Shown here: positions 1,471-48,862 of the stretch, one piece after another
Position numbering within the stretch: the stretch's first letter is position 1
Layout: each line of letters starts with the position of its first letter
Origin: Diphasiastrum complanatum
Lineage: Eukaryota > Streptophyta > Lycopodiopsida > Lycopodiales > Lycopodiaceae
DNA length: 64,000 nt
Direction: 5' to 3'
Assembly: GCA_029204225.1 (NCBI GenBank)
Contig: CM055094.1
Location: 5,388,063 to 5,452,062, forward strand
Position numbers and translations under genes: made by a program
The notes under the pieces: generated by a model
What the model saw: only the letters and a program-made list of their open reading frames with translations
Told to the model about the DNA's origin: nothing
The model's database searches: none

Positions 1471-2417
1471 CAAAGCTTGGTTCTTGCTTAAAATATAAAT
1501 ATTCCTCATGTTTATGTACTTGTAGTATTGTGCACTCTAAAAAAGGATTGTGCAAAATGATGCTAGAGGAGCAAGAAAACTATTGATTTTATTAATGAAT
1601 GATGGAAAACCCATCAATGTACAAAAAGATGAGAGTAGAATGTGCTTAAGAGAGCACTTTTTTATCACCCCTTTTGGTTGTAGATTCGAGCCTCTTTCTT
1701 CTTATTTCTTCCTAAAGCAGCTCTTTCTAGCCCTTGAATCCATTCATGCTCTTGGCCCTAAACACTTTGGACTTGCTCATTGCTCACGTAAAATAAAAAC
1801 GATCACAGACACTCTCTTCTACATCCTTCCCTTCTTCATTCTCCAAGGGACTTATGAAGTTCATCCGAAGGTGAAATCACCTATTTGTGTTTTATAATAT
1901 AGACCTTTATGCTCAACATCTCTTACAAAGTTGTTGCCAAAGCAATTGGTCAGTGGCTTGGAACTTAGAAAAGGGGTAGTTAAAAAATAATTAAAAAATC
2001 AAATAATGATCACGAAAATACTAATGACAGTATTCAGCTCGTTGAAATAAGCAATTTTCCTTTTTCAAGTATTGAATTCCATGATCAAAATACAGAATTA
2101 CGAACTTGGTTAAAAATTAAAGAGAAAATTCAAAAAATAAACTGTCTTAGGAAGTCCTTAGGGGGCATGTGAGAAAGCGAGAACGCACGTGAAGGAGAGA
2201 GAAAGTCAATGGGGGCCCAATGCTCATGAAGGGCTGGGGGGAGTGGAACACGCCGAGGGGGTCTAGATGAAGAGAGAAACATGGCACGTAGGCAAGTGGC
2301 CCGATTGAATGTTTGGCGGCGAGATTTTATTTAAAATAAAACTTCAAAAGAAAAAAATGAAAAAAAAAAATTGCAACAAAAAAAACCTTTCATATTTGAA
2401 GTCGTGAAGTGCTTCTC
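1471..2417. other. No gene recognised
   Basis: AT-rich sequence with short open frames that show no family motif. From 2160 to 2300 the base composition is more G-rich, and a poly(A)-rich stretch at 2330-2390 precedes the LTR remnant. Confidence 0.6.
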
Positions 2418-3236
2418 CCAACGGCGCCGGCGCCGCTCCCGGCACCACTTTGACCAGAATCCAGCCGGCGCCAAGTTCCTATGGCTGAAAATCTTTGATC
2501 GGTTCTAGCGAAGTCCAGAGAGCTCAGATCGATGTGCAATCACCTCACACGATCTAGGCATGATAAAAGGAAGCCTGGGGATCAATAAAATCTAGAGAGA
2601 GAAAATGACTTTCTAGAAAGAGAAAATCCTAGAGAGAGTCGTATCCCGGGATGCCAGCGGTATGCCGTCGGGACCATTCGGTCCGTGGCGCCAGCGGTAT
2701 GCTGTCGGGACCATTTGGTCCAAGAACTGGTTGTTTCCATATCTGTCGCGGCTTGTGGTTCTGAGTGTTCCTTGCATGAACGTGAATGGGTTAAGCTCTT
2801 GGGGAACGGGCTCTAACCTGTCGGCTGAGTTGGATGGCTTGCTTGGGTGGATGTTACCTGTTTATGGCTGTCCAGTCTGGCGTGGCGCCAGGTTGGCTTC
2901 CAGCGCTCGTGACGAAGCTTTCAGTTGGTTAAGTCTGATGTAAGTCAGACCGCTTGCTTGGAATGGATGTTACTCGTTTGTAACGAAGCTTCGAGTTGGT
3001 TAAGTTTGATGTATGTCGGGCGGCTTGCTTGGAGGGAAGTCACCCACGTCGGGACCCCCGATCTGGCATGGCGCCAGGTTGGATCTCAATGTTGGTTTTC
3101 GGAACTTCAAGTTGGTTAAGTCTGATCGTTGTTGGCGAGTTGGCTGCTTGTATGTCAAGTGGGTTTGGATGGCAAGAGTTGAAGGCTGGGAAGCTAAGTC
3201 GTGGTTCCCGGCTCCCTTTGGGATGCCTGCGCTACA
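2418..3236 (+). mobile_element. Family-T solo LTR, 5'-truncated and internally deleted (L1)
   Basis: Homology to the full LTR (for example 52819-54063) begins in the GGCGCC-rich block at about 2418 and ends at the canonical 3' terminus GCGCTACA at 3236. The first about 100 bp of the LTR are missing. A second deletion of about 360 bp joins the AGAGAGAG tract at 2638 directly to GTCGTATCCCGGG. No primer-binding site follows, so no internal region is attached. No target-site duplication can be assigned because the 5' end is lost. Small open frames within it recur in every LTR copy and are not genes. Confidence 0.9.
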
Positions 3237-4553
3237 AAGGTGTCTCCTTTTTTTCATAAAAAAGGAAAATGAGGAAAGAGCTCAAGGTGCAAGCTTTAAT
3301 CATCATCTAATGGGTGGTCATAGATCTTGGATTGTGTAGAAATGACAATGTGCAAATTATGGTGGAATTAATAATCTATATTGAGTCCATTATTGTCTAA
3401 GGGTGGCCATAGATCTTGGATTGTGTAGAGAAGATCGTGTGTAAATGATGGAGCAATCAATATTGAACTGCGCTTGGATGGGAGAGAGACACTAGCTGCA
3501 TGCAACTTCAGATGCAATTGGGAAGACACTCCTCTTTAGTTAGGAATGGAGTCCTTCTTCAGAAGGAAATGAGTGCAACATTGTTTGCATGCTTCCCTTT
3601 CTTGATCTCTTTATTGTTGTCACATGGCATCTTTTGTGGCAAAGAGAGAGAGTCACATCAAATAATGGCATCATCCTCCATGGCCTCTTATGTGGCCAAT
3701 AGCACATTGAAAAATGGCGTGTTTCATGGCACATTGAGATAGAGAAAATGTAACTAGTAGGTTTTGCTTAGCTTGTAGATCTACTTGTATTTGGTATGGG
3801 ATGTTCTTGATTTAGAGGCTGTTGGACTAACCTCCTATAAAGTAGGAGGCGACCGGTCAATGAGCACATGTCATATGCTCACTGGGACACTTGGTCCAGT
3901 GTATGAGTGACACATCGGACAATGATGTATGAAATAGGTGAAGGATGCATGTTCTATTACAGAGTCAAAAGGATGTGAGTAATCATTCCCTGCTATAACA
4001 ATCTGACGGTTGTCGAAAATATTGGGCAAATTTACTAAGCACCTCCACTTCCTTTGGGAAGCTATTTCGTTGGTCATTGCAACCAACAACATGCTTCCCT
4101 CTCTTTGGTTAAAACCTTGTTCACATGCAAGTGAGAGTGGATGAAAACCACGAAGCACCTAGGGAGAGAAAAACATAGCACTTGACATATTTACAACTAA
4201 ACGAAGCTTGAAATTTGTAGAGTTGAAATATTGGTTTTGCATGGGTGCCCATTGAGAGTTGTGCAAGGACAATTGTTAGAGAGGTGTAGAAGTGAGGGAA
4301 TTGCAAGTATTGGAATTCTCACAACTAGGTACCTGTTAAAAAGCATTCAATGAAGAATTGTTAATTTGTCGTTAGCCCAAATTTATGAGCCTAGTCCATA
4401 AACTCTCAGTTAGGATTCCTCACATGAGCAGAATTATTCCTTCAACCATGTTCTCTAGTTAAAAACCAGAAATTCGATATTCCCATTCTTAACCATCAGT
4501 TCAGGTAGATTCTCATAAAAAATCATCGTTATGAACGGAGAACATCTTTCAAC
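3237..4553. other. No gene recognised
   Basis: Short frames only, without recognisable domains. Contains one spaced direct repeat (3312-3340 and 3401-3429). Confidence 0.6.
3312..3429. repeat. Spaced 29-bp direct repeat
   Basis: The 29-bp words starting GGGTGG at 3312-3340 and 3401-3429 differ at one base and are 89 bp apart. Sequence between and after the words also looks loosely similar (AATGATGG/AATTATGG context), so this may be an old two-unit tandem repeat. Confidence 0.7.
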
Positions 4554-4898
4554 ATGGGTAAGAATGGAGCAAGTTCTAAAAGACCCACGTATTTGCCAAA
4601 AGCCATACAAGCTCTAGATAGGCCATTGTTTTCACAACTTGCATGGAAGCCAAAAGCACCAGTCTCTCCTCAAAAAGAACAACCATGCAAAGTTAGAAAA
4701 AGCTTCCTCATGCAAGAAAAGGAAATGAGGTCAGTTTTCAAGGGCCTCATGCAAACCCTAACAAAACTTGCAAGGGCAAAGCATCAAAATACAATGCTTG
4801 TTCGACCCTCCCACGGCCGCTACAGTTCGACTCTCTGCACCATCGCTGATAAAGACAGGTATGCATTCAAGCAACACACCCACAGTTACAACAGCTGA
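4554..4898 (+). CDS. Hypothetical short ORF, doubtful
   Basis: An open frame of 114 codons, Lys/Gln/Pro-rich, with no domain I recognise, no transmembrane segment and no signal peptide. A Thr/Ser/Pro-rich stretch (SSNTPTVTTADQPLTPTDAS) can be read in the next frame at about 4860-4940, so a frameshifted low-complexity protein is conceivable. No paralogue exists in this window to test conservation. It is kept only because it is the longest open stretch between 3.2 and 5.8 kb. Confidence 0.2.
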   Translation: MGKNGASSKRPTYLPKAIQALDRPLFSQLAWKPKAPVSPQKEQPCKVRKSFLMQEKEMRSVFKGLMQTLTKLARAKHQNTMLVRPSHGRYSSTLCTIADKDRYAFKQHTHSYNS

Positions 4899-5773
4899 TC
4901 AGCCTCTTACACCCACAGATGCTTCTCCCACTGGAAACGGCCGGCTGCCATTGATGAGTGAAGGATAGATGGATATCGTTCCTGTAACAGAATCATCGGC
5001 GAACTCCAGCTCCATTACCTCTGTCACAAAATTCTGGGGATTCATAAATGGGCAGGGAACTACCGACAAGACCATCAATGGGTAGGCGGAAAGCGAGACC
5101 CAACATGGATGCTCTACGCACATCAGTTCCCAATTCGACCATGTTTAGATCTAAACAGCTGATCAACAATTAGTTTCACACAAATCTCTTTCTTATGACC
5201 TAAGAAATGAGTTTTAAAAGGTAGAAGATTGCTTTTCTGTTGCTCTGAAAACAGGGTTTCTTCCCACACAATCACTCTCCCCAACAGAGGTTTCAAGCAA
5301 CTCACAGGAGAAAGTTTTTCCTGAACTCAAGCTGCAGGCATCAATTATTCCAAAGGATTATGATTCATGTTCTACTTTCAAACCAAAAGCAGGACCACCA
5401 GAATCACAATCAACAGGGAATAGTTAATTTCTCATGCCAAGCTATAGGAACACTCTTTTGTCCATGTCTATTTATGCTTACCTCTAGAGAATGAGCAACT
5501 TACAATATCCAATCTATGTTTTCAGTTTGCTTGAATCACAAGAGGATTAGTTATGGAGAAAAAACTCAAACCCTCAACAAGCAATCATTAAATTCAAGAT
5601 TTTCAGCTATAGTTAATTTATTCATTATGGATGAATTGATTCCTCACCAATCTATCAACAAACATCCTGCAACTAAATCTGAATCTAACCTGTCCAAAAC
5701 ATTATGGATTCAAGCAAATTATTCATTCCCAAAATAAATAGATTTAGACAAGCATTAAGGAAAATATGGGCTT
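4899..5773. other. No gene recognised
   Basis: Short frames only; no motif, no element terminus and no clear repeat. Confidence 0.55.
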
Positions 5774-5895
5774 AAAATGGGCCCTTTAAAAAATTTAGAG
5801 AGAGATTATGTAGAGAGAGAATGCGAACCGGTAACTTCTAGTCGCCGTTTTTCGAGTTTTCAGCCTTGCCCGACGTTTAACTGGTATGGTTAACT
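5774..5895 (+). repeat. Unit-1 leader, shared with 31442-31570
   Basis: The block starting AAAATGGGCCCT and ending TGGTTAACTT is also found at 31442-31570. Shared features are an AGAGAGAGA tract, a GCCGTTTTT/GCCATTTTTTT region, TTGCCCG and GTTTAACTGG/GTCTAACTGG. In both places it lies a few hundred bp upstream of a LP--C-PII ORF, so it marks the left end or 5' leader of the same repeated cassette. No terminal inverted repeat was found to pair with it. Confidence 0.7.
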
Positions 5896-6156
5896 TCAGA
5901 CAATAGTAAGCTAAGCATGAGATGTAATAACTTTTCTTCATGCTCGTTCAAAATTCGGGCCTAGAGCTTTAAGACTGAAAATCTTGGTGTGCTCAATGCA
6001 AAAACTGAAGGAGTTGAAATCACTGTATGCTTATAGTGAAATTTGAGGCGGGACGATTTTTCAATGTGACATAAACATTACAAAAGTAAGGTATGCTAAA
6101 TCTATTCATGTTGATTTACTATAGTTTGAAGCATTTACGGATTGTAGCTTTTAACA

Positions 6157-6620
6157 ATGGCAATGTTCCATTTGCATGTTGCTCTTCCTATGGAATGCAC
6201 TCCAATTATTAAGAAAAATTCGAAAGTTGTAGAGAATGCTACTGCAATAGTTAGAGAATTGAGGATGAATAATCATATGAATATAGATTTGTGGGTGGAT
6301 GGATCAATTTATCCTAATGATCCAGCTACCAATTTGTGTCCAGATTTTAAGTCCGTAACTCATTTTCTCAGATTTGTATGTGAAGAAAATAGCGGATTAC
6401 TTGGATATTGTCAAAGGTTACGTGATATTGGAATGCATAGCATATCTTGTCTTAATCAGCAATTATAGTTTGCTAATCAACAATTGCAACGTGCAAATCA
6501 GCAATTGCTTCATTATGTGCAACACACTACTGCTGAAAACAATGCACTCCGGAATGCTATCTCAGAGTTGAATGCTACAGTTACTACTCTTCGGGGATCA
6601 AACCAAGAAATGTTAGAATC
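6157..6620 (+). pseudogene. LW-DGS-YP coiled-coil ORF, unit 1 copy 1
   Basis: The reading frame starts at ATG 6157 and gives a compact N-terminal domain with LPMECTPIIKK, IDLWVDGSIYPNDP, and a FLRFVCEENSGLLGYC block. A single TAG at 6466-6468 interrupts it. Beyond that codon the same frame continues into a heptad-like segment rich in Asn, Gln and Leu (ANQQLQRANQQLL, AENNALRNAISELNATV) to about 6615, a likely coiled coil. The same motifs recur at 6850-7269 and 31834-32140, so this is a real protein family although I do not recognise it. One nonsense codon and later stops make this copy a probable pseudogene. It lies upstream of an H3-fold gene in both cassettes. Confidence 0.6.
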
Positions 6621-6849
6621 CAGGAAAAGCTGAGATCCGAGAGTTTAAAATCTGTTGTTGATATAAAAGTTATCAAAAAGACAATGATGAAGAGAAAAAG
6701 AAAGAGAGTACCGATGAAGAATGTTGATGACTTATTTATACATAGCGGCACATAATTTGAGTTTCATATGTTTGTTGCATTTCATGTTTGGTGGCAAAGA
6801 ACTATTTAACAGATCGTTCATGCATTGGATCATCTTTAAGTCATGTTTT

Positions 6850-7269
6850 ACCAAGAAAGTCAGCAAAGGGAATGATATGATCGCTCACAGAATCAACCAA
6901 AGAAATAATTACGATTTGTGGATTGACGGAAGTTTGTATCCATTGGATCCGAGCTCGATGCAAGCTCGACAATTCCCATCCATCACACAATTAATAAAGT
7001 TTTTGTGTAATGGAGAAAACGGTTTATTGGGTTATTGTGTAATATTGACGAATGGTGTTGCAAACTCGGTTCAGAAAATACAGAGTTTAAAATGTATGTT
7101 AAATGGTTTGCTTGCTGACTATAGAAAAAAAGAGACCGCATTATTACAAACAAAAGAAGATAATGCACGTTCACATAATATTATGTTAAATTTGAATGCA
7201 ATTAATGATCAATTCCGACAAGTTGTTGTATATCAAATGACTAGTCAAAAGAAGAAACTTGCATACTAG
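6850..7269 (+). CDS. LW-DGS-YP coiled-coil ORF, unit 1 copy 2
   Basis: Open frame (open back to 6721) whose recognisable part runs YDLWIDGSLYPLDP, FPSITQLIKFLCNGENGLLGYC, then a helical Lys/Glu/Gln/Asn-rich tail. It parallels copy 1 domain by domain, so the two are a tandem duplication about 690 bp apart. The N-terminal LP--C-PII block of copies 1 and 3 is missing here; the upstream residues are hydrophobic (YLYIAAHNLSFICLLHFMF) and probably not the original N-terminus. The frame ends at 7269, but Lys-rich coding-like sequence follows in other frames. Function unknown. Confidence refers to it being protein-coding in origin. Confidence 0.5.
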   Translation, partial: TKKVSKGNDMIAHRINQRNNYDLWIDGSLYPLDPSSMQARQFPSITQLIKFLCNGENGLLGYCVILTNGVANSVQKIQSLKCMLNGLLADYRKKETALLQTKEDNARSHNIMLNLNAINDQFRQVVVYQMTSQKKKLAY

Positions 7270-7559
7270 ATAAGAAATTAAAAAGAAACAAGCGAAAAAG
7301 AATTCTAAAGGACATTGATGAGCTTTCGCTAAATGGAGGCCAACGGAGAAAAAGGATTCAAGCATTCAAGTTAGCATCTGATTTGAATCGGTTTTATTTT
7401 AGTTTTGTGAAGTAGCATGACATTTATTATGTGTCCTATTTGGGTTTCTTGATTTTTATAATCATTTGCAGATCAGCATTGGTTGCAAATGAGCATCTGA
7501 AGGACAATGACCTGATTGGAAAATCACTGAGTTTGGTATTGACAACCAAGTCCAGCGGT

Positions 7560-7862
7560 CAAAATTGCCAGAAACGACGACCAAATCATTTGCATGACAC
7601 GTGCACACTTCAGATCTTGACACGTGTCCTTGCACGTGCATGCCAACTGTACGATCATATCAGCCAGTCGTCCCGTGATGCGTGTGTGGCCCAGATTGTG
7701 ACACATATCCTCGCAAGTGCATGTCAATCGTATGATCATACGGACCAGTGATGTCTTGACACGTGACAAGTCCGTGTGATGACATGTGTGACCACACGTG
7801 CGGGGATTGGAGGTGTCACATCACACGTGTGATAATGATGGGACATTATGCAGGTATAAAAG
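7560..7862 (+). promoter_or_regulatory. Probable promoter of H3-fold gene 1 (CACGTG cluster and TATA box)
   Basis: A dense group of ACACGTG/CACGTGT elements (G-box/E-box core CACGTG or its near relatives) lies at about 7596, 7620, 7635, 7758, 7793 and 7824. It is followed by a TATA box (GTATAAAAGG, about 7854) some 255 bp before the ATG at 8113. Between TATA and ATG, CATATCG/CGATA words recur. The second H3-fold gene has the same architecture (34960-35160), which supports a conserved promoter. Function is inferred from sequence only. Confidence 0.6.
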
Positions 7863-8112
7863 GATGCTTTGGGCTCATATTTCTGTTTCGTATTTCTTCA
7901 TTCCTTAGTGCTCCTCAGATTTCTTCGATCACTTGCGCCCCTCGCTATCCGCATATCGCTACCACACGCCCAGAGAGTCAGATACCAGTACAGCTTTCCC
8001 CTCCGCGCGTCGTAGCGATACGCCATCTCCCATATCGCCATCACACGCCTCCCCTATCCGATATGCACTATTCTTTCTCATTGGCGTGTCATAACGATAC
8101 CTTAGCTTGAAA

Positions 8113-8718
8113 TGGCCTGTACCAAGCAGATAGCACATTTGCCCCGCCTCCTCGTCCTCTTGTACAAAGGGCAGTGGGCACTAGTAGGAGAGTAGGTCGG
8201 CCTAGAAGACCATGGTTAAGGGATATCAGGAGACTACAGAGGACAACAAATCTTCCGATTCCCCGTGATTCTACAGGTCTGTGAGATTAGTGACAAGGTC
8301 ACTCTCACATGATATTCGCTGGAACATAACAGCCCTGGAAGCCCTCCATACTGCCTATGAGGACTTTCAAGTTAAATTCTATGAGAACTCTACGCTTTGC
8401 ACAGTGCACGCCAAGAGAGTTACCCTCATGCCTCAGGACATGCATCTTGCAATGAGGCTGAGGAGTACATACGATCAGGTCTTTAAGAGTGGCTTCACTT
8501 CTAGGCCACCACCTACAGAGAGAGGGCCTGTTCCTCAATGAAGAAGGAGAAAGTAGATCAAGCCCACCAGGCCTGCCAGACAAAGGGTAGTACTCAGCGA
8601 ATCACCATCCCCTCATATCTCTCATCCTTTGGTTGGACCATCACACCAGTCTGCAATGCGTTCTTCTCCTCCCACCACCCCTAACTATTCAAGTAGTTCC
8701 TCTTCCATTCCCTCCTAG
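8113..8718 (+). pseudogene. Divergent histone H3-fold protein, copy 1
   Basis: The start MACTKQIA resembles the H3 tail MARTKQTA. A frame change near 8137 leads to an Arg/Pro-rich linker and RPRRPWLRDIRRLQRTTNLPIP, equivalent to H3 [22 protein letters not shown]. A one-base loss near 8272 shifts to the histone fold: HDIRWNITALEALHTAYEDF, then YENSTLCTVHAKRVTLMPQD and MHLAMRLRS, aligning without gaps to H3 alpha-1 end, alpha-2 and alpha-3. Trp replaces the H3 Phe84 position, as in plant CENH3. The frame continues past two stops (TGA after VPQ, then TAG) into a Pro/Ser-rich tail to about 8718 that canonical H3 lacks. Four lesions make this a pseudogene. The tail ends where the Ulp1-derived inverted repeat begins. 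Confidence 0.75.
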
Positions 8719-9128
8719 CTTATCAATCTCTTTGGCAACATACTCATCAAAAACTATATACCTCTCAGAATCCAAAAATGAATCTTTTGGATCAACAAAA
8801 AATCTTACACAAAGATCCTTATAAAAAATACCTATTAAACTTATATGTAGATCCGATATTATTCTATCTACAATAGTGGTCTTTGGTCCCAGGTTCGAGC
8901 CTCCCCTTGGAAACCAAGAAGCATTCCCTCCATTCCATCCTACAATAACGAACATATGACCACTATTGTAGATAGAATAATATCGGATCTACATATAAGT
9001 TTAATAGGTAATTTTTATAAGGATCTTTGTGTAAGATTTTTTGTTGATCCAAAAGATTCATTTTTGGATTCTGAGAGGTATATAGTTTTTGATGAGTATG
9101 TTGCCAAAGAGATTGATAAGCTAGGAGG
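8711..9128. repeat. Near-perfect 171-bp inverted repeat made of Ulp1 gene sequence
   Basis: The arm at 8711-8881 is the reverse complement of 8958-9128, with one difference noticed by eye (near 8827 versus 9012). The spacer is 76 bp (8882-8957). The right arm is the natural N-terminal coding part of the Ulp1-like gene (SDLHISLIGNFYKDL, DSFLDSERYIVFDEY); the left arm is an inverted copy placed between the H3-fold gene and the protease. Transcription through both arms would give a long hairpin RNA. Confidence 0.9.
8882..8925 (+). repeat. tRNA-derived SINE fragment in hairpin loop
   Basis: The loop contains TTTGGTCCCAGGTTCGAGCC and then CTCCCCTTGG-AAACCAA-AAGCATT. The same arrangement is seen on the minus strand at 22596-22636, where it belongs to a SINE with an upstream A box. 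GGTTCGAGCC fits the pol III B-box consensus GGTTCGANNCC. Only the B-box half remains here. Confidence 0.6.
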
Positions 9129-10138
9129 TCAATTTTCTTTCTGTATAAGTTCAATTAATTATGTAAATCACATAAATAAAGACTTTTGTGATGTCTTGAA
9201 GGAGAAGACAACAAATATATCAGATCCAGTTGTGGAGGCTGGTTTGATGTATTTTGTAAATAGATGTAAATGCGATGATACTAAGGACATTGGAGTTGTG
9301 CTGTCTTTTTTTGCACACAGCCCTTATAGTCCAACTCAGGCGACGAAGTATCTTCTCCATACAACCTCGGAGACCAAAGTCTTTATTATTCCATATTGCC
9401 AAAACTAAGTGATTACATATAATATATTCAAGTAATATTTTTAATAGGTATTGTAATTCCTTCAGTTTAACTAATTATCTCTTGTTTGCAGTAAGCATTG
9501 GAGTATGCATATAATCTCCCTTAGGGAAGATTCAGATGGGATCGTTAATCCCATCTGTTTAAAGATGGATTCCTTGAGCTCTACCCATGCCGAAATGGAC
9601 GTGATGTATAGTAGAATGTTGCCATTTTTGCCAAAGCCGGATGGGGCCACTCTAAATAGCCACCTGGAGATTGTTGATGCAGAAGTAAGTATTTCTCATT
9701 AAGCTGATAGGTAATATGATTTGTTTTTTTCAGAGTGCACAACTAACCTATTATACGTTTTGTGATTGAAGTCAACTCAGCAAAATGATGGACATAGTTG
9801 TGGATGGTTCTCCATCCACAATATAAAAGACTTCTTAGAGTGGTACATCATGCAATCCGCGGCTCCAGATATACGAAACGTAAATAGACTAAGTAATGGC
9901 CTAACTATTTTTTTTTTTTATTTGGTTTATGATAAGTCAATTGACTCGGTTATTTTGGATTTGCAGTATAAATGACAAGCATTTACAATGAATGAGATAT
10001 ATGAGTTTCGTCAACAATTGTTGGTGAACTTATTATCCCATGCAACACCCAGTCCAGCTGCGGAAACGGGAGGCCAATCAAGTCCACAACTGACACTAGT
10101 GCAGGGTGGAGATAATCCATATTACTTTGAGCTGTAAA
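8956..10138 (+). pseudogene. Ulp1/SENP-like C48 cysteine protease, copy 1
   Basis: A four-exon reading is supported by comparison with the copy at 57178-58256. Exon 1 (8956 to about 9405) ends in KVFIIPYC. Exon 2 (about 9492-9684) opens with the catalytic HW dipeptide and holds the KMDSL acidic residue. Exon 3 (9772-9879) carries QQNDGHSCGWF, with the oxyanion Gln and catalytic Cys. Exon 4 (from 9967) ends in NPYYFEL at 10138. Introns start GTAAGT and GTAAAT and end AG. His, Asp, Gln and Cys of the Ulp1 fold are all present. Ulp1 proteases remove SUMO-like proteins; transposon-borne relatives are common in plants. An in-frame TAA near the first splice site and a TGA at 9973 suggest decay, unless splice sites differ. 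The true N-terminus is uncertain because the inverted repeat begins at the start. Confidence 0.75.
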
Positions 10139-10533
10139 TAATAGATTAAATAGAGATATACATTTTTGATGTAATGCCCTGTGAATAATTATGGGCATAT
10201 AGAAAGATAGAGACAATGGGGTAAAAGCATCCATTGTTAAATATAGGACACACATGTACATTCTTAGAAAATGAGAAAATTATGAGAGCTTTTAAAAATC
10301 TTGTATCATGATTGCTCTATTATCTGAACAATTCCGCCCAAATCTTTGCATTTGATTTTCTCTTCATGTCTTACGAATCTGCACAAACATACATTAATCA
10401 AATTACAGTTAGTGATCCGAATATTGACAAAAAGGATAATGAATACAAATTAATATACAAATTCATAGATTTCACATACCAATTTTCCATCCAATATAAA
10501 GCAAATATTCGGGGATATCTTGTTGTAAAAGTG
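10139..10533. other. Convergent intergenic region
   Basis: AT-rich spacer between the 3' end of the Ulp1-like gene and the 3' end of the minus-strand gene. No feature recognised. Confidence 0.5.
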
Positions 10534-11590
10534 TCAGTCCGTTCTAATGTAGAATAAGGTCCAGTCCTGCTCAACCTCAATAGTAGTAAGTGAATCTCCA
10601 TTTTCTATGATATCAATGCATATATGATCAGTGTGTCCAATGTTGTCTAGATCTTGATCTAATGGGGCAAAAGTACCGTTGTGTTCTTTCCATCTCTGAT
10701 AATGAAACACCATACTAAGCATTTGCTTTTCTATACTGTATCTAAATGATATGGATGAATGTTTGATTCTACAAGCAATATCTGCAGTGGATCTTATATC
10801 CCAACCTTTGTCCATGAATTTGAATAAAAAATCATCTGATAGATTTTTGCAAACAAACAATGTGGGAGTTCGATGCACCTCCGTGTTTGAAAAAGAGCTG
10901 ACAAACAATAACATTGGAACAAACAAGCTTAAGTGCCCATTTCTTGATCCAGTACTAGTTTTGAGTGACTTTTGTATATCATTATATAGCTTGGAACAAA
11001 AACATTTTATTATATTGTCATTGACTGCAATCCACCACACGTTATCTTGAAAACTAGGTAGAGGTATACACTCTAGTTTTCCCATTCCTCCATTTGTGTA
11101 TGGAATATACATAGCATCATAAAAAAATATTCCAGAATCTGCAAGTGCTTTTGTCATTCGTCCTCTGTATTGCAATTTGCCAATTTTTGAATGGATGACA
11201 TCTATGATACCTGAAAGAGACGCCACAGGTTTCCATTCATGTATATTTGAAGGATATAGATCTGCAATACAAAATCATAATAAGCTCTGATTCATAAATA
11301 CGATTACGTTTTAAAAATGACAAGCAACCCAAAAAATTAAGATACTTACAATAACACTTTCAAAAATCATGTGGATTTACAACCTCCACATTAAGTTCTG
11401 AATGCATATAAACATGTTGAATAAGCACCTTTGAAACGGTTTGTCCTCCTGGAGAAACTTTGAAATCAATAAGCCGCCCTTTCCAATAAGATCTATATGT
11501 ATACTTGACCTTTTTCTTTTGGCGAAAAGCCCCTCTCGCCAATGGATGCATCAGTACCCAAGAAGCCTTATGATATTCACGAGCATTCAT
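10534..11590 (-). CDS. Unknown intron-containing gene of unit 1
   Basis: Two open blocks on the minus strand. The 5' block (11590-11355) starts MNAREYHKASWVLMHP and is rich in basic and aromatic residues (KVKYTYRSYWKGRLIDFKV). The 3' block (about 11265-10534) includes YPSNIHEWKPVASLSG, QYRGRMTKALADSG, NVWWIAVNDN and ends VEQDWTLFYIRTD. GTAAGTATC at 11354 and TTTTGTATTGCAG ending at about 11266 are convincing donor and acceptor sites for an intron of about 90 bp; a TGA sits eleven bases before the donor, so the joined frame needs one changed codon or another donor. I recognise no family. The position, convergent with the protease, suggests it belongs to the same cassette. Possibly a transposon-encoded protein. 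Confidence 0.5.
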
Positions 11591-11984
11591 GTGCCATCGT
11601 CTTCTCTCTCATTATAAAAAATTGCAGAGCATATCAAGGATCTTGGTCTCCTTCTCATTGTCATAGCTTGAAGAGTTCACGTTTGAACTTGTCAATATGA
11701 GAGTCCAGAGTATAATAGGCGCCAAACCTATTTGTGAGTCCCAAGATAATTTTAACTTGAGGTTAACCCAAGCAGTTTAGTCAACCAGTCGTCGCGCACG
11801 CCAGCCAATAGTATGCTTCCAATCTACTAGACCGGAAATTCAAATTTGCCCAAACATGAATTGTGTTTTCCGCGTCAGGCGAGTTATGTTACATAAAAAC
11901 CACTATGTCAAGAACCGATTGGGCCACATGGACATAAACAACGAGGGAAAAAAAAAACTCGTAACAAACGGCCCTTCTAAGTTT
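11591..11984. other. No gene recognised
   Basis: Possible upstream region of the minus-strand unknown gene; no motif or repeat that I can support. Confidence 0.5.
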
Positions 11985-12266
11985 GAGAACTCTTGTAATG
12001 AATAATTATAATTAGACCCTAACATGCCACGAACCTAAAGCAATTGTTGTCAACAATACATTAACAAAATAGTACAATATAGGTACTATTATAGTTCATT
12101 ATAGGTAATTGTAACTAGCTGAGAATTCCATATAGAGTTAAGAGTTAACCAACTAGCTGCAGTTAAATCACTTGTTAAGTAATTTATGTGCTATAGGTAA
12201 CTGATTCACTAACAAATACAGCATGCCAAGCAAGCCAGCAGCCATCGTGATTATTCGGTAGAACAA
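11985..12266 (-). repeat. 3' flank of copy B, duplicated at 1175-1470
   Basis: Reverse complement match to the DNA following copy A, colinear with small indels, showing that A and B share a segmental origin that reaches beyond the coding region. Confidence 0.85.
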
Positions 12267-32169: not shown

Positions 32170-33420
32170 GGTGGAAACAAAATATATGTGCCAAACTATG
32201 GCACGTTTCAAATTTGATGGCATCTCGCAGGTGATTTAAAGACACTGAAATGTATGTATAATGTTTCGCACGGGGCAAATACTAAACATCCTTGTTTGTA
32301 TTGTATGAAGAATTGTAAAGACTTGAATTTGACAAGATCAAGAGTTGGTCCAACAAGAGATCGAGAGGATCCAAACTTTAGACCTGTGTTGGCAATTCCA
32401 TTGGTCAATGTTCACATATGCACATTGCATGCTGAGGTACAAATTATCGAAAAATTGATTTACAATCATATTTTGTATGTTTGGAATACCAAACCTGAAT
32501 TGGCCTCTAAAATTGGAATTGAGAGATTAGAGGAAGTACTTTCAAAAGCAGGTTTGCACAAGGGGAATGTTAAAATAGAAAAAGGTGAGAAACTATCGGG
32601 TAAATCAGGGAACGTTCCAAACAAGCCATTTGTTGGAGGTACAAAAGCTAGAACGTTTTTATCCAATCACACTGGAAAGTCTTCTACCGTGACATACAAT
32701 ATTTGGAAAGATGCTAGAACGTTTTTATCCAATCACACTGGAAAGTCTTCTACCGTGACATACAATATTTGGAAAGATGTTGTTGCAGCATCAAAAGATT
32801 TTGAAGATAGGGGCAACACAAGATTAAAAAAAACTGCAATATGGCAAAATCTTGACAATTTGATTGGCATGTTCGAAAAGAAAAGTTATCTAAAATCGAC
32901 ATTGCAAATTTACAAAAATATTGTGAGATATTTGTCAAATCGGTAACAGAATGTTGGGGAGAGGATCATGTTACACACTATATGGTAATTCAATATTTGT
33001 TTTTGTGCAAAAATCATTCAACAACGTCATATATTTGATTTCTGATATATGTATTTTACTGATTGTAGCATATTTTATTACATCACACCACATTTTCTGC
33101 AAAAGAATATGGAAGTATGAGCATATGGTCTGCTCAAGGTATGGAGAAATCGCATTGGCAAGCAAGAGGAGCTTTTCATTGAGCAACAACCATGGAGGAT
33201 ATAATTCAAAGAGATGCTATTTATATCAATTATTTCAATGGTTCTACAGAAGAGCACAATTTAGATATCAAACCAAATATTCAACAAATCTCATTTCATT
33301 CAAAAATGCATTTCAACATCTGAGGAGAAATAGTTCAAAAAGAAAAATAATTAAAACATTACATATTCTTATTGGTATCAAAGGTCAGATGAGCAGTATG
33401 GTCATGAAGAAATTGTCTCC
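32170..33420 (+). pseudogene. Transposase-like protein with CLYC motif
   Basis: Coding sequence begins before the ATG at 32254 (LAGDLKTLKC precedes MYNVSHGANTKHPCLYCMKN) and stays open to 32946. Motifs: HPCLYC (CxxC), VNVHICTLHAEVQIIEKL, KPFVGGTKARTFL, AIWQNLDNLIGMF. After 32946, ECWGEDHVTHYM ends at a possible donor (ATG-GTAATT, about 32984). Then EYGSMSIWSAQGMEKSHWQARG follows, with a stop, near 33105-33175. The GDLK...CLYC...LH...QGMEKSH arrangement resembles uncharacterised, probably transposon-derived proteins that I recall in animals and plants (memory, not a search). His, Asp and Glu are conserved-looking but I do not assign a catalytic triad. A 66-bp tandem duplication lies inside. 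Confidence 0.5.
32647..32778 (+). repeat. Perfect in-frame 66-bp tandem duplication
   Basis: 32647-32712 and 32713-32778 are identical, encoding the same 22 residues (ARTFLSNHTGKS...IWKD) twice and keeping the frame. Identity implies a very recent slip or assembly artefact. Confidence 0.95.
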
Positions 33421-34500
33421 TCTCATATGGATCCAGATGCTCAATTGATCTTCTTTTGCTCAACTCTATGTAACTTGCGTACACTGCTAAAGCAGATGAC
33501 CTTTTGGGTACATTTTCAGAAACATAACCCAATATTTTTATAGCTATATCCCTCTTCACAAAAATGATTTTGTATGTACTGTTAGAATATCTATGTCCAT
33601 CACAAAAATAGGACAATGCCTTTATTGCCATTACTATAGTTCTTGCTTGTGAATAAAAGTTGTCATGTTGAATACGAATTTCATTTTGTTCAAAGTATTT
33701 CAGGTAATGGCACAATGTTGAATCCTTTTGGCCAACAACACCTCGGGCACCTCCTCTTCTCGTAGCAAAATCATCAACTTCAATTGTGTCCCGCAATATA
33801 AATACAAAAATTTGTAATCAATTTAATTTTTAGATGGATTTTGATTGAATACTATGCTAAACATGATTATGATGGAATAAGAAAATGAAAATTACCATGT
33901 TATGCTGGTCATACTCCAACAATCCTTTCCACGCAAGTCATGCCCAGCAGGAAAACTTCTCACTATCTCAGAAAAAATGTATTGCTCTGGAGGAGGATAT
34001 CTTTTTTGAAACTCAATGAACTCCTCCTCACTAGGAGCATTTGCTCCATAAGCTAGACATTGTTGCCTTGTAATTTGTAAAGCCTGTTCTCCAAACTTCC
34101 AACCACCTTCATCTTCATAGTCAATCCCTTCAATTAAATCATCATGATTGAAGTCTATTATATCCAAAATTATGACAATGCATTGGCTAGTACAGATAGG
34201 ATCTCGTCCTCTCTCATGTCTAATACACCCCCAATATCATTCAATGAAAAATATGGCAAGCTATTCATGTGATATATAAGAATGTCAAGCGGTGTCTTGC
34301 TTTTATCGTGTTCTTCTACATCTGATGTAGAAGATATTACCATTGACCGTGATAGAGTAGGGTCAGCCTAGCCTCTTCCTCATCACCTAATACTTCATCT
34401 TCTAAATTTTTGTCCACATCGACAGTACATCTCTGAGTAGATGTTCTACTTGAAGAACCAACACCAATTGATCTAGAAGATTGGCCTTCATTAGGTATAA
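33359..34500 (-). CDS. Unknown minus-strand gene of unit 2, probably multi-exon
   Basis: Two open blocks: 34167-33892 (IDFNHDDLIEGIDYEDEGGW, ITRQQCLAYGANAP, RYPPPEQYIFSEIVRSFPAG) and 33796-33359 (DDFATRRGGARGVVGQKDS, YFCDGHRYSNSTYKIIF, HLDPYERRQFLHDHTAHL). GTAATTTTC after ACATG at about 33897 is a plausible donor between them; the acceptor is not certain. Further upstream (34500-34170) Ser/Thr-rich and acidic peptide (SSRSIGVGSSSRTSTQR, LEDEVLGDEEEARL) and SLPYFSLNDIGGVLDMRED can be read in different frames. I do not recognise the family. It is convergent with the transposase-like gene, as the unknown gene of unit 1 is convergent with the protease. Confidence 0.4.
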
Positions 34501-34639
34501 AGGCATATATGAAGAAAACAAAAGCTATGCTGTCAGCTATAAACCTGCATGATCTTCTATGGGATTCACAATATTATACAACCTTCAGGCTCTCGTCAAG
34601 CTTGGTAAACTTCCTATCATGCTTGTGCTTGGCTTCAGG

Positions 34640-35200
34640 AGAGGCACTGTCGTGTGGCAGCGATATCAGGGAAATAAGCAAGTATCAATATCGCAGGCAC
34701 GTGACGGTGTGTAGGAAAAATCAAAAGTGGCAGCAGCATCGCATGGTAGCAATATTGGGCAGTCGATGAGCGAATCCGATATCGCAGGCACACGAAGGAG
34801 TGCTGGCAAATAAGATCAAATGTAGTAGATTTGCGTTGTTGTGATATTGCAATCAAAATCTTTGAGTTATCAAAACGTTTTATGATAGAGTTTAGTCCTT
34901 ATATACATCCCGTAGATTCATTGCAGCCGTTCGGAAGTCACTTAGATACACGACACTTCTGAGATATGTCCATTCCTATACCACGTGCGAAGCATTATGT
35001 GCAATGTCGGCCAAATCCATAGGTGACATGTGTGTGGTTTAAAATCGGACACATATATCTGCACGTGTGGAGCAATCATAAATAGGACACACGAATCAGA
35101 AATTGGCACGTGGCACTTTTGCATTTAATGCATAAAAAATATTTCTCTATATAAGCAGAGACTACGATTAAAAATCATTTGCTTATAAAATTCGTGAATC
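34640..35200 (+). promoter_or_regulatory. Probable promoter of H3-fold gene 2
   Basis: GCACGTG, CCACGTG, GCACGTGTGG and GGCACGTGGC words at about 34700, 34982, 35074 and 35105, then a TATA box CTCTATATAAGCAG at about 35146, 230 bp before the ATG at 35378. GATATCGCAGGCAC-like words at 34690 and 34780 and GATATCGGA words in the leader parallel the CATATCG words of gene 1. Confidence 0.6.
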
Positions 35201-35377
35201 GTTTCATTCTCTATGTCGCCCAAACAGAATATCGGAGCGGCGCGACAGTTTAGGTTCTTTCTTCGAGGCTTGGTCCCTGCGATATCGGAATCTCTGTCTG
35301 ATATTGGAGCTATGTGAGAATTTGTATACGTTTAATTCATCAACCATCTACTCGCGTGTCTGCGATATCGGAAAGGT

Positions 35378-35933
35378 ATGGCAAGGACTAAATAGACCGC
35401 GCGTCCACAATCTATTGTCCCGTTTGCTGGTCAACCTACATCATCCTTTCATCCTGCAGCTGCTAGACTTCGTGCTAGGAGGACAGGCAGAAAACCCCGC
35501 CCATGGCTCAGAGATATCAGGAGGTTACAGAAGTCCACCAACCTGCTGATACCGAAAGCTCACTTCAACATAATAGTGAGGAATGTGATAAGATCTTTAT
35601 CTGTGGATGTGAGATGGTGCGTGACTGCCATAGAAGCTTTGCATACAACCTATGAAGATTATCAGAATAGGTTTTTTGAGGATACTGTGCTTGTTGTTGT
35701 ACATGCAAAGCGGGTGACTATCATGGCCAAAGATATGGAGCTTGTGTTCAGGCTGAGGAATCAGTACGAGCAGGTGTTCAAAGCACCTCCACCTCCCCGA
35801 CCCGCTCCCAGGGTTAGACCCCCTTATCAGAGGAAAAGAACGCAGTCAAGGCCAATGTAGTCAAGATCCAGGGCCAAAAAAGAACAAATCAAGCCAGTGG
35901 AAGACCAGCCAACTCATGATCAAGCTGGGCCGT
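35378..35933 (+). pseudogene. Divergent histone H3-fold protein, copy 2 (CENH3-like features)
   Basis: The frame begins MARTK, then TAG where canonical H3 has Gln5, then TARP; it stays open to 35857. After an Arg/Ala/Pro-rich tail come KPRPWLRDIRRLQKSTNLLIP (H3 alpha-N), RSLSVDVRWCVTAIEALHTT (alpha-1/alpha-2), FFEDTVLVVVHAKRVTIMAKD (alpha-2/loop 2) and ELVFRLRNQ (alpha-3). Alignment to H3 is gap-free through alpha-1 and alpha-2. TNLLIP and Trp at the Phe84 position are typical of plant CENH3, but loop 1 has no CENH3-type insertion. A Pro/Arg-rich extension (FKAPPPPRPAPRVRPP) follows; after TAG at 35858 coding-like sequence (RAKKEQIKPVEDQP) goes on to the LTR at 35934. One nonsense codon at position 6 argues for a pseudogene, unless translation starts downstream. 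Confidence 0.8.
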
Positions 35934-45545: not shown

Positions 45546-46741
45546 TGTAACGCAGGCATCCCAAAGGGAGTCGGGAACCACGACTTAGCTTCCCAGCCTT
45601 CAACTCTTGCCATCCAAACACACTTGACATACAAGCAGCCAACTCGCCAACAAAGATCAGACTTAACCAACTTGAAGTTCCGAAACCAACATTGAGATCC
45701 AACTTGGCGCCATGCCAGATCGAAGGTCTCGATGTGGGTGACTTCTCTCCGCGCCAGTCAAACTTAACCAACTCGAAGCTTCGTTACAAACGAGTAACAT
45801 CCATTCCAAGCAAGCGGTCTGACTTACATTAGACTTAACCAATTGAAAGCTTCGTCACGAGCGCTGGAAGCCAACCTGGCGCCACGCCAGACTGGACAGC
45901 CATAAACAGGTAACTTCCACCCAAGCAAGCCATCCAACTCAGCCGACAGGTTAGAGCCCGTTCCCCAAGAGCTTAACCCATTCACGTTCATGCAAGGAAC
46001 ACTCAGAACCACAAGTCGCGACAGATATGGAAACAACCAGTTCCTGGACCAAATGGTCCCGAAAGCATATCGCTGGCGCCACGGACCGAATGGTCCCGAC
46101 GGCATACCTTTGGCGTCCCGGGATACGACCCTCAACTATGTGCCAACTTAAAAATTTTGAAGCGGCCTTACAACTGGCGCTTTTACCGAACACTGAAACC
46201 CAGAAGGTAATCAGAGTCAGTTTGAGAAAAATCTCACTTTATTGATAAATCGGAGAAGGTTACATTTCAAGTGTGTGACCGACCCTAGTCTCCGGGGAGC
46301 TAGCATGCCATGGCGAGTGCCAGGACAACATTCCAACAAGGGAGGCTGAGACTTGGTTGGAGCTCGCCCTGAGTCGCAACCCGCACTCCCCTATAGTATT
46401 GGTGGGATTCGGCACCCCCCTCATACCAAGTACTCTACCCAGGCTGGTAAAGCACGTTTTTCTCTCTCTAGAATTTTCTCTCTAGAAAGTTATTTTCTCT
46501 CTCTAGATTTTATTGATCCTCAGGCTTCCTTTAGTCATTCCTAGATCATGTGAGGTGATTGCACATCGATCTGAGCTCTCTAGACTTCGCTAGAACCGAT
46601 CAAAGATTTGCAGCCATAAGAACTTGGCGCCGGCTGAATTTTGGTCACAGTGGCTCCTAGAGCGATGTCGGCACCGGTAGCAATAGGGGCGCTGCTGCGC
46701 CAGTGGCGCTGAAAGTAAAGCTCGTAAAGGTAGCTTTACAA
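45546..46741 (-). mobile_element. Family-T 5' LTR of E4 (L10)
   Basis: 3' terminus TGTAACGC at 45546, 5' terminus CTTTACAA near 46741 with the last two bases altered. More diverged than the other LTRs (several substitutions, missing words in the GGCGCC block), so it is an older insertion. It truncates the N-terminal part of VLIG copy C. Confidence 0.85.
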
Positions 46742-48369
46742 TGCAAATGAATTGTCAACTTCAGAGTAGGCACTTAAAGGGTGACACTGGAGATGGCCCC
46801 ACAGTGGTAGAGTTTGGAATCGGCTTTCTGAGGACACCAGATAATCAGCTACAAGAGCATACGCCATGCTTCGTATTTTGTGTGTGGGGCGATCACAATC
46901 GGCTGGGGGAGTTTTTGGGTGAGGTTGCAGACATGATCGTCGTAGAAACGGAGCCAGATAAGAAAGCAAGCTTTCTTCCGTGGACTGAAGGTCATCCCAA
47001 TGTCGACATACTCTACTGGAATATCAATTCAGAAAAGAAGGGTCTCAGCATTGACAAAGACTTCAAACGTATGTGGGGATCCTTTAAACAGTTGACTGAG
47101 GATATCCGGAAATACTTGGTGAGAGCCATTAATCTGGGGAGATTCAAAGGCCGGAATGGTCAAGCTGCAACTTTGAAAGAATGTCTGAGTGGAATTCCTC
47201 CATTGAACAAGGAAACCCCCATTTCCAATATTGCGAATCTTGATGACATAGAGAGGGCGAGGGATTCTCTTCGGTTGCAGAAAACCTTTGCCGAGGAAGC
47301 ACATCTTTACTTTGAGTCACTGCGGCAGAAACAAGATAAGGAGAAACTTGAGCACAAGATGAGGGGAATTCAAAGAGAACGTGCAAGTGCTGCTCATGAA
47401 GTGCAGAAATTGCCAATTCTTCGATTCTTTCTGCAACTGCTTTCGGAGAAGCATCACGTGAAACGGAAGATTGGCATCGTGCACTTCCAGCTGTCAATAG
47501 ACAAGAAGCTGCAATCGACTCTTGAAAAGACTGCCAAAACTGTGGACGAGGCTTTCGATGCGTCTCGGAAGAAACCAGAAAGTTCTGAGTTGAAGCACAA
47601 GTACAGAGAAGCTAAAAAAGATCATATGAACCAGATGTTAGGTTTGGAGCACCTATGGAGAGAGTTGAGCCACATATTTGTCGCAGAACCAAGCAAGAGG
47701 GAGCTCCCGAGGCTGGCAGCGCACCACTTGCTGGATGGCTTCCCATTGGAAATCCTAGATGGAGATGCAGCCATGTTTCACAAACTGTGGGTGGAGACAG
47801 TCTTGGTTGAGCTGGACACAGTGCTGCTTGCTACGTTAAAACATAAGCCCAAGGTGTTCGTGCTGAGTATAGTAGGACTCCAAAGCAGCGGTAAATCCAC
47901 TCTTCTCAACCTCATGTTTGGCACACAGCTCAAGACAAGTGCGGGCCAGTGCACCCGTGGGGTATATCTTCAGCTTGTGAAGTCAGAGTGGCGAGAATTT
48001 GACTACGTGCTGCTGCTAGATACGGAGGGGATAAGGGCCTCGGAATATTATGGCCTTCAGGATGCCGAGTCAAAAGACAACCGCCTGGCAACTTTTGCTA
48101 TTCTTCCCGCAGATGCTTGTATTATAATGGTCGCCAACGAAGAAGACAACGGGCTCAAAGATGTACTCCCCATGGTGGTGTTAGCATTCAAAGGATCTGC
48201 CATGGCTGATAAGTATGCTGGTCGGCTGCAGGCAAAGTTGTTTTTTGTTTATAGGAGTGTTGACACAAATGACGTGAAAAAGCTAAAAAAAAACCAGCAA
48301 ACTTCTAGAAGACTTGCAAGATGCTTCCTTCAAGATTGTTGGAATAGGACAGCGAAGCTCACAAGCTGC
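46742..48369 (+). pseudogene. VLIG/GVIN-type large GTPase, copy C, N-terminal half
   Basis: Open from 46741 to about 48300. It begins within the region equivalent to VEILYWNIN of copy B plus about 90 further residues (GDTGDGPTVVEFGIGFLRTP). The Y-SH...GG region is missing, lost at the LTR junction. Key motifs by residue of this frame: P-loop GLQSSGKST at about 379-387 (47875-47901), SAGQCTRGVYLQ, G3 DTEG at about 427-430 (48019-48030), DACIIMVANEEDNG, and LFFVYRSVDTNDV. A shift of one base near 48302 takes the reading to EDLQDASF..., which matches copy B. At CATCA (48370-48374) the gene is split by a compound LTR element and resumes at 54069. The last residues of the open frame past 48369 are LTR-derived. 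Confidence 0.9.
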
Positions 48370-48374
48370 CATCA

Positions 48375-48862
48375 TGTTGTAAAGCTACCTTTACAAGCTT
48401 TACTTGCGGCGCCATCGGCGCCAGCTATGTCCCGCGCCACTGCTGCTCCCGGCTCCAACGGCGCTGGCGTCGCTCCCGGCGCCACTGTGACCAGAATCCA
48501 GCCGGCGCCAAGTTCCTATGGCTGAAAATCTTTGATCGGTTCTAGCGAAGTCCAGAGAGCTCAGATCGATGTGCAATCACCTCACACGATCTAGGCATGA
48601 TTAAAGGAAGCCTGGGGATCAATAAAATCTAGAGAGAGAAAATGACTTTCTAGAAAGAGAAAATCCTAGAGAGAGAAAAACGTGCTTTACCAGCTTGGGT
48701 AGAGTGCTTGGTATGAGGGGGGTGCCGAATCACACCAATACTATAGGGGAGTGCGGGTTGCGACTCAGGGCGAGCTCCAACCAAGTCTCAGCCTCCCTTG
48801 CTGGAATGTTGTCATGGCTCTCGCCTTGGAATGCTAGCGCCCCGGAGACTAGGGTCGGTCAC
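48375..48862 (+). repeat. Truncated outer LTR (L11)
   Basis: First 488 bp of a family-T LTR, ending within GGGTCGGTCAC where a complete LTR starts. Confidence 0.9.

Follow-up and report, generated by a model that had tools for sequence, protein, structure and literature searches.

A group of many-copy DNA transposons, in which a histone H3 fold and an Ulp1-type protease are joined in one gene, has been found in the genome of Diphasiastrum complanatum (Lycopodiaceae), starting from a 64,000-nt stretch of contig CM055094.1 of assembly GCA_029204225.1 (the window, C3:5388063-5452062, forward strand). Complete elements carry four genes, here called A to D, between inverted ends. Unit 1 of the window (5753–12000) is a decayed copy of such a many-copy plant DNA transposon, and unit 2 (31421–35931) is a copy from a second family of the same group. 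We are nearly certain of this anatomy, that is, of the four genes and the ends; the whole account, of a four-gene transposon with inverted ends that leaves no target duplication and whose gene C would act as an anti-silencing factor, is offered with moderate confidence.

An earlier sequence-only reading of the window had described a recurring cassette and proposed that an H3-fold gene, a deSUMOylase-like protease and a transposase-like protein travel together in a large DNA transposon. The three are indeed found together, in a large element with inverted ends.

Gene order, families and ends

Candidates were sought in 1,744,706,496 bases comprising 5,176 contigs, of which C1–C23 are chromosome-sized. 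Separate searches with H3, the protease exon, gene A and gene D each yielded thousands of first-look candidates, mostly unscored (11,496 for gene D genome-wide), and linkage was counted among the best 150 of them scored per gene (for gene D, the best 150 of 153 matches); the counts are lower bounds, as only these candidates were scored. Match lists displaced by 50 or 200 kb in both directions served as controls. The protease exon is present within 1.2 kb on the same strand for 83 of the 150 best H3 matches (0, 0, 0 and 0 in the controls), and for 43 of them gene D is found on the opposite strand at a distance of up to 3.5 kb (none on the same strand; 0, 0, 0 and 1 in the controls). Downstream of the best 150 gene A matches, in the expected orientation, we observe H3 for 42, the protease for 39, gene D for 41 and any of these for 67, with 0–1 per gene in the controls and two cases of gene D in the unexpected orientation. 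The genes named in the cassette are thus linked in other copies as well, and copies are present on all 23 large contigs.

The anatomy was read in six 10-kb stretches around H3 matches with long frames (L001–L006), two of which were extended outwards to obtain whole elements of 9,063 bp (L003) and 9,017 bp (L005), starting with CATTAGAGGAGTTACAAACATCAAAAGGG. The gene order in the complete elements is A (+), B (–), C (+), D (–); L001–L006 can be aligned for kilobases with one another and with unit 1. The idea of two separate cassettes, each with its own cargo, is rejected, as fuller copies hold all four genes; the units of the window, each of which had been credited with additional genes of its own, both come from one A-B-C-D plan and differ by deletion or truncation. 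In L002 (C6:21313643-21323642) about 2.9 kb comprising genes A and B has been inverted without a change of position, and the rest of the element keeps its order.

The copies fall into two classes. Class I comprises families F1 (unit 1), F2 (unit 2, L030), F3 (L036), F4 (L021, a single copy) and F5 (L097–L116, L119, L120). Class II, where the H3 domain stands at the C-terminus of a polyproline protein, accounts for 18 of the 20 loci in one fetched set (not L020 and L021); here L029 is the same place as L015, and L122 the same as L014. Class II is considered kin of class I because gene D is homologous across the classes over its length (blastp, E = 1.5e-34), the motif GMEKSHYRAKAAYF is present in class II too, and the ends match, the left L122 end CATTAGGGCCC...GGGCC being an inverted copy of a right end in L119 with 32 bp identical. 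The likeness of gene B between the classes is weak (profile E = 1.3e-4, one-sequence search), and the arrangement in L122 differs: D and H3 share one strand and lie opposite B and the 3' part of A. Beside the class II copy in L029 (C17:36118126-36128125) a different transposase-like ORF is seen at approximately 757–1681 on the minus strand, with a weak DUF7869 match under the cut-off (8.5e-4).

Six copies and the window copy lose similarity at the same point, after TRTAATG (window position 12000). The right end, when read inwards, repeats the left end imperfectly in inverted form (CATTACAAG...TTCTCAAACTTAGAAGGGCC), and the terminal inverted repeats are approximately 30 bp long, imperfect in F1. 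The left ends of F1, F2 and F3, as well as that of the fragment at 5753, start with CATTA and have GGGCC (GGGTC in L005) about 30 bp inside. The right-end pattern of F1 occurs at 228 genome sites with up to three mismatches (119 forward, 109 reverse); the reversed-pattern control gave 0.

Alignment of copies had also been expected to reveal target duplications; the inverted ends were found by it, and at two insertions no target duplication is present. One of these is L003, which sits in gene A intron 1 of an F3 element: when its flanks are joined without deleting a base, they match three empty F3 copies over 440 bases without gaps at 95.7% identity, and two more empty F3 copies match them with a 2-base gap away from the joint. 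The other is class II copy L122 (positions 1864–8267 in the turned locus), which is inserted into a Copia polymerase gene (RVT_2, E = 1.4e-61 in the right flank); its joined flanks read FCDNQASQQIVSNPIFHARTKHIEIAHHFVREKVQSKEVQLHHVPSSEC unbroken, which by eye we take to be the end of a Copia polyprotein, although the 49-aa joint by itself gave no match in Pfam. As the flanks of both independent insertions are seamless, no target duplication has been left. The flanks of L005 show none by eye either, and the search for its empty site gave no clean match, two partial matches (72–73%) spanning the joint, one of them 12 bases longer than the stretch used as query. Reading of L119, L120 and L121 did not yield both ends of an F2 or F5 element, and the right end of L030 is uncertain. 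A Helitron was considered and rejected: inverted ends are present, the ends read TAATG where a Helitron would have CTRR, and genes A–D have no Rep or helicase match in Pfam. Members of the Spy superfamily make no target duplication; if confirmed for an enzyme of the DDE type, insertion of this kind would be uncommon.

The LW-DGS-YP ORF with its coiled coil, previously taken for a separate gene, forms the first exon of gene A (transposase-like), and intron 1 of this gene is visible in two families. Later exons contain KLDES, GDLK, HPCLYC and GMEKSH (KLDES, GDLK and GMEKSH are common to several families), and we propose that these motifs may form a DDE-like catalytic series. Pfam searches with one decayed copy of gene A gave no convincing match (best 0.14 at E ≤ 1; further pieces at E ≤ 10 all below cut-off), no MULE model at E ≤ 1, and no KDZ (Kyakuja-Dileera-Zisupton) model at E ≤ 1 or, for the further pieces, at E ≤ 10; judged by Pfam, the transposon group is without placement in a known superfamily. 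No gene A relatives were found in viral contigs by tblastn. The convergent gene at 10534–11590 proved to be a repeated gene and has no Pfam match; for this gene D, single-sequence structure prediction was unusable (mean pLDDT 29.7) and no fold search was made.

The H3–protease fusion and selection on it

Both H3-fold ORFs predicted in the window match Pfam Histone (E = 1.9e-14 for 8281–8541 and 2.5e-12 for 35576–35860), and the first also matches PDB H3 chains at about 1e-12. H3 and the protease had been read as separate genes; in the better copies they form one open frame. In L001–L006 gene C encodes the H3 fold, a serine/proline-rich linker and the protease in one frame of 367–448 aa, with the tail in frame with the fold in five of the six (that of L003 is shifted by a 2-base gap), and in the F2 copy L030 the fusion occupies a 527-aa frame. 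In the window copy, H3 and the protease are split by frameshifts and an inverted duplication. The protease pieces of the window have no Pfam match singly, and the Ulp1-type assignment is confirmed only once they are joined at splice sites (Peptidase_C48, PF02902, E = 1.8e-8, 34.9 bits vs. a cut-off of 20.7); the L030 protease, at 20.2 bits, is just below this cut-off, and a PDB search with the joined exons gave one weak Ulp1-like match (6dg4, E = 1.2). By motif search, the Gln and Cys are present in L001, L002, L003, L005, L006, L030, L120 and the window copy (exon 3 of L004 was not found in this way), and the His in L001–L003, L005, L030 and the window copy, with Tyr in L004 and no such motif found in L006. 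Protease-like sequence follows H3 on the same strand in F3, F4 and F5; of their catalytic motifs only the Q...SCGW of F5 was recovered. The single F4 copy (L021, C7:53543499-53545098) has a 412-aa frame with a gene A piece, the H3 domain and protease-like sequence, apparently joined by deletion.

Past purifying selection on the H3 fold has been shown for F1. Out of 67 H3 matches on C1–C23 with a protease match, 47 copies were used (7 already read and 40 of the 60 others), with the fold as the only criterion of choice and the tail disregarded, and the first part of gene C of unit 1 was aligned with the 46 further copies; removal of three poorly aligned rows (L055, L062, L072) left 44. Variants seen in a single copy mostly arose after insertion, and those shared by three or more copies arose in active lineages. 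Non-synonymous to synonymous ratios (N:S, stops being counted as non-synonymous) were compared between these two kinds of variants, and the counts were repeated outside CG and CHG sites. For the fold they are 91:20 among singletons vs. 28:41 among shared variants (odds ratio, OR, 6.7, P = 1.8e-8), and 82:16 vs. 9:26 outside CG/CHG (OR 14.8, P = 9e-10); the copies were picked by similarity to the window H3 protein, which affects both variant kinds, and sharing via recent duplication is still included in the counts (L040 and L043 are 99.9% alike). The protease part has 151:47 vs. 46:30 (OR 2.1, P = 0.011), linker 2 has 76:23 vs. 34:17 (OR 1.65, P = 0.24), and for linker 1 P = 0.43. In F2 the fold gives P = 0.049, and 0.031 outside CG/CHG.

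Moreover, the first residues of the H3 tail have been kept across the divergence of three families. The majority tails are MARTKQT[A/T]RLTTFAPPP in F1, MARTKQTARPKSIVPSA in F2 and MARTKQT[A/T]RGHSGGIPI in F5. Between F1 and F2, seven of the eight residues encoded by codons 2–9 are equal though seven of these eight codons differ, and only one of eight residues is equal at codons 10–17; F1 and F5 agree in all eight residues, with three codons different, and then in one of eight. The H3K4 position is Lys in 43 of 44 F1 rows (44 of 47 including the removed ones), as well as in 20 of 20 F2 and 19 of 19 F5 rows (one of 20 F5 rows began a codon late and was left out), the last two figures being biased because these copies were drawn from matches to a tail-containing query, nearly all aligned from its first residue. 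Exact ARTKQT[A/T]R is retained in 13 of 44, 7 of 20 and 8 of 19 rows of F1, F2 and F5, respectively; the losses are mostly changes of R to H, C or Q, and of Q to stop. The canonical H3 tail has eight lysines, among them K9, K14, K18, K23 and K27. Of the copies that retain the PW with which the fold begins, 36 of 42 in F1 and 16 of 19 in F5 have a single lysine ahead of it.

The element protein is similar to canonical H3 in its fold, the MARTKQTAR start, the H3-length loop 1 and HAKRVT in loop 2, and differs from it by the tail replaced after residue 9 and the C-terminal protease fusion. Among the genome H3 matches listed, 13 are 97–99% identical to canonical H3, further exons 82–97%, and element copies mostly about 44–55% overall. 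In a tree of 24 rows (F3 left out) the support is 96/92 for class I and 100/98 for class II; class I is grouped with Arabidopsis CenH3 at 72/79, where the tree is not decisive, and one origin of the H3 domains of both classes is not rejected (p-AU 0.18). Loop 1 is lengthened in CenH3; in class I it has the canonical H3 length in the aligned rows, unlike that of CenH3 sequences. The host CenH3 was not found among the matches listed, which element copies fill. Residues R83, H113, R116, T118 and D123, which we take to be DNA or H3–H3' contacts, are kept in most F1, F2 and F5 rows of the tree alignment.

The two units of the window

Judging by the alignments, unit 1 is a chimera, with the left end of another subfamily joined to a 5'-truncated F1 copy (Table 1): positions 5753–6870 have no match to F1 elements, whose alignment starts only at 6873, and the adjoining 6873–7554 holds a second LW-DGS-YP ORF with a coiled coil. 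The leader described as common to both units sits inside the left-end fragment and is a true similarity (about 5770–5896 vs. 31438–31570, 72% over 134 nt, E = 7.7e-13). The segment 8711–8872 is a reversed copy of approximately 8967–9128. The 46 bases at 8880–8925 recur exactly in a short repeat that lies upstream of L005 and resemble window positions 22.5–22.7 kb; by eye they look like part of a tRNA-derived short repeat.

Table 1. Features of units 1 and 2, in window coordinates
Feature	Position	Strand	Evidence
Left end CATTAAGG...GGGCC and gene A first exon (LW-DGS-YP ORF 6157-6468), related subfamily	5753..~6870	+	End resembles F1/F2/F3 ends
F1 gene A, 5'-truncated: remainder of exon 1, start of intron 1/exon 2	6873..7554	+	90-92% to L003, L005
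Internal deletion junction, ~3.7 kb gone (gene A core and gene B)	7554..7555	.	L003 3018 aligned to 7554, 6754 to 7555
Start of gene C: decayed H3 tail (MACTKQI...), in-frame H3 fold (8281-8541) and linker	8112..8710	+	Pfam Histone, PDB
Inverted duplication of protease-exon start, parting H3 from protease	8711..8872	-	Reversed match to L001-L006
Gene C protease part, first exon	8956..9408	+	Open frame fused to H3 in L001-L006; PF02902 with next exons
Second exon of gene C, with KHWSMHI (His) and KMDSL (Asp in this copy; the other copies read have Asn)	9492..9684	+	Sequence reading, motifs
Gene C exon 3: QQNDGHSCGWF (Gln, Cys)	9772..9879	+	Sequence reading, PF02902, motifs
Proposed last exon of gene C, interrupted in the window copy by one in-frame stop	9967..10137	+	Splice signals by reading; inferred
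Gene D main exon, convergent	10534..11226	-	At least 150 genome matches at E ≤ 0.001; no Pfam match
Gene D first exon	11360..11590	-	Same frame in L001-L006; splice assignment inferred
F1 right end	11970..12000	+	Sharp boundary common to seven copies
Unit 2: F2 copy, left end intact (CATTAGG), ends after H3	31421..35931	+	87-90% and 77-80% pieces to L030; end sequence
Unit 2 gene A: GDLK, HPCLYC, GMEKSH motifs; short internal tandem duplication, frameshifts	32217..33400	+	Sequence reading, motifs
Unit 2 gene B (previously a second gene of unknown nature)	33359..34560	-	Matches gene B of L030 (DNA level) and L003
Unit 2 H3: MARTK-stop-TARP tail and H3 fold	35378..35860	+	Pfam Histone; F2 copies read MARTKQTARP

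Unit 2 stops near 35931, at the start of GC-rich repeats; single-sequence structure prediction for its histone ORF was unusable (mean pLDDT 45.6), and no fold search was made. Further along the window, a 594-aa ORF (46741–48525) has a match to the GTPase domain of URGCP-like proteins (very large inducible type; PF25683, E = 1.1e-54), and repeats that are 97–100% alike are located around it at about 14.5–20, 36–42 and 48–54 kb in both orientations. This suggests a possible recent array of GTPase genes around this ORF, interrupting unit 2.

Possible function of gene C

Plant transposon silencing depends on H3K9me2 (PMC7218100 is cited beside this dependence). We tentatively favour an anti-silencing function of gene C, a reading that falls a little short of even, because K9 and K27 have been lost in F1 and F5 with K4 kept. 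The gene C protein, we infer, may enter or imitate nucleosomes: its H3 fold would pair with host H4 and enter nucleosomes at or near the element, with a tail that would offer H3K4 but in two families neither K9 nor K27. Such chromatin could not receive the lysine marks by which plant transposons are kept silent, and the fused protease could strip SUMO, or another modifier, from local silencing factors. As the histone part has been kept intact by selection, the elements may use H3 to alter silencing chromatin. A bolder version, histone-replacing transposons that would deposit over their copies an H3 of their own, with K4 kept and, in two families, K9 and K27 lost, and so build chromatin closed to the silencing lysine marks, with the protease removing SUMO-dependent silencing factors there, is speculative and rather doubtful.

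Several observations weigh against this anti-silencing function. A K4-only tail is not general, as F2 tails have 2–4 lysines, the one F3 tail read is MAKTKST, and in the class II loci read there is neither an ARTKQTAR tail nor a protease seen. The selection test on the first 12 codons of F1 alone gives P = 0.69 (0.04 outside CG/CHG, with few variants), and the fold gives P = 0.094 in F5 (0.32 outside CG/CHG) and 0.076 in class II, the latter from 17 rows where L014 and L122 are the same copy. The protease is similar to Ulp1/C48 SUMO proteases in its PF02902 match with His, Gln and Cys motifs and differs from them by the N-terminal histone and by Asn in place of the usual Asp as the third catalytic residue, observed in seven of the eight copies read (L001–L006 and L030) and not in the window copy, the only one with Asp. 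Finally, nearly all element copies read are decayed, many with stops or frameshifts.

The main rival, which seems unlikely, is targeting of insertion: to choose sites, the H3-like domain would carry the transposition machinery to nucleosomes, possibly those of centromeres or of freshly replicated chromatin, and the protease would clear SUMO-modified proteins there. The class I fold has a CenH3-like NLLIP and the indecisive grouping with Arabidopsis CenH3 noted above, and the copies are spread over all 23 large contigs, but loop 1 is of ordinary H3 length and not of CenH3 length, and a tail conserved at its K4 start is not needed for site choice. Related proteases have processing roles in other mobile elements, and the protease here might act on the element's own proteins, by processing or removal of ubiquitin-like tags, with H3 only anchoring it to chromatin. 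The Asn found for Asp in most copies suggests changed specificity or mechanism and would fit this; however, no cleavage sites were found (no search for them was made), the H3 fold is under stronger constraint than the tested part of the protease (OR 6.7 vs. 2.1), and H3 occurs in class II, where no protease was seen. We consider this explanation improbable. Disfavoured, and very improbable, is passive capture, in which a host H3 was picked up and multiplied as a functionless passenger, as in fungal hAT elements. Capture of H3 with inactivation of the copies is documented in fungi (PMC6710886), and many copies here have stops or frameshifts; against it stand the purifying selection on the F1 fold, the tail conserved between families while its codons changed, and the protease fusion and fixed gene order in several families.

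The target duplication of MULE/VANDAL elements is about 9 bp. The nearest precedent for anti-silencing would be the VANC system: VANDAL elements carry VANC anti-silencing proteins (PMC10398659), and the KIU subgroup (Kaonashi) has an Ulp1 domain of unknown function (PMC13317346). In these flowering-plant Mutator-like elements, as here, a plant DNA transposon has an accessory gene, which counters silencing in the case of VANC and may do so here, with a captured Ulp1 in KIU; the elements of D. complanatum differ by inverted ends, no target duplication and no MULE match in gene A, and their accessory protein is histone H3 instead of a VANC-type DNA-binding protein. KDZ and related fungal transposons with TET/JBP also carry a chromatin- or DNA-modifying accessory gene (PMC12730594), an oxygenase as opposed to the histone and protease here, where gene A has no KDZ match. 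In Dothideomycete hAT elements a host-type, housekeeping H3 has been captured, multiplied inside a DNA transposon and inactivated by RIP, according to PMC6710886; here, a divergent H3 has a protease attached, its tail is reshaped, and it has been under purifying selection in the past. A search of open-licence PMC papers found no selected H3–protease fusion in a transposon, and among them the passive fungal capture described in PMC6710886 is the nearest published case.

The elements are numerous: one family has 228 right ends, and each gene searched gave first-look candidates in the thousands. Plant transposons escape silencing via DNA-binding anti-silencing proteins; if the proposed function is true, a transposon that itself provides a variant of the very histone on which the silencing marks are placed would represent a different strategy. 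It would also be a natural test of which H3 tail residues matter, two families having lost nearly all tail lysines but K4.

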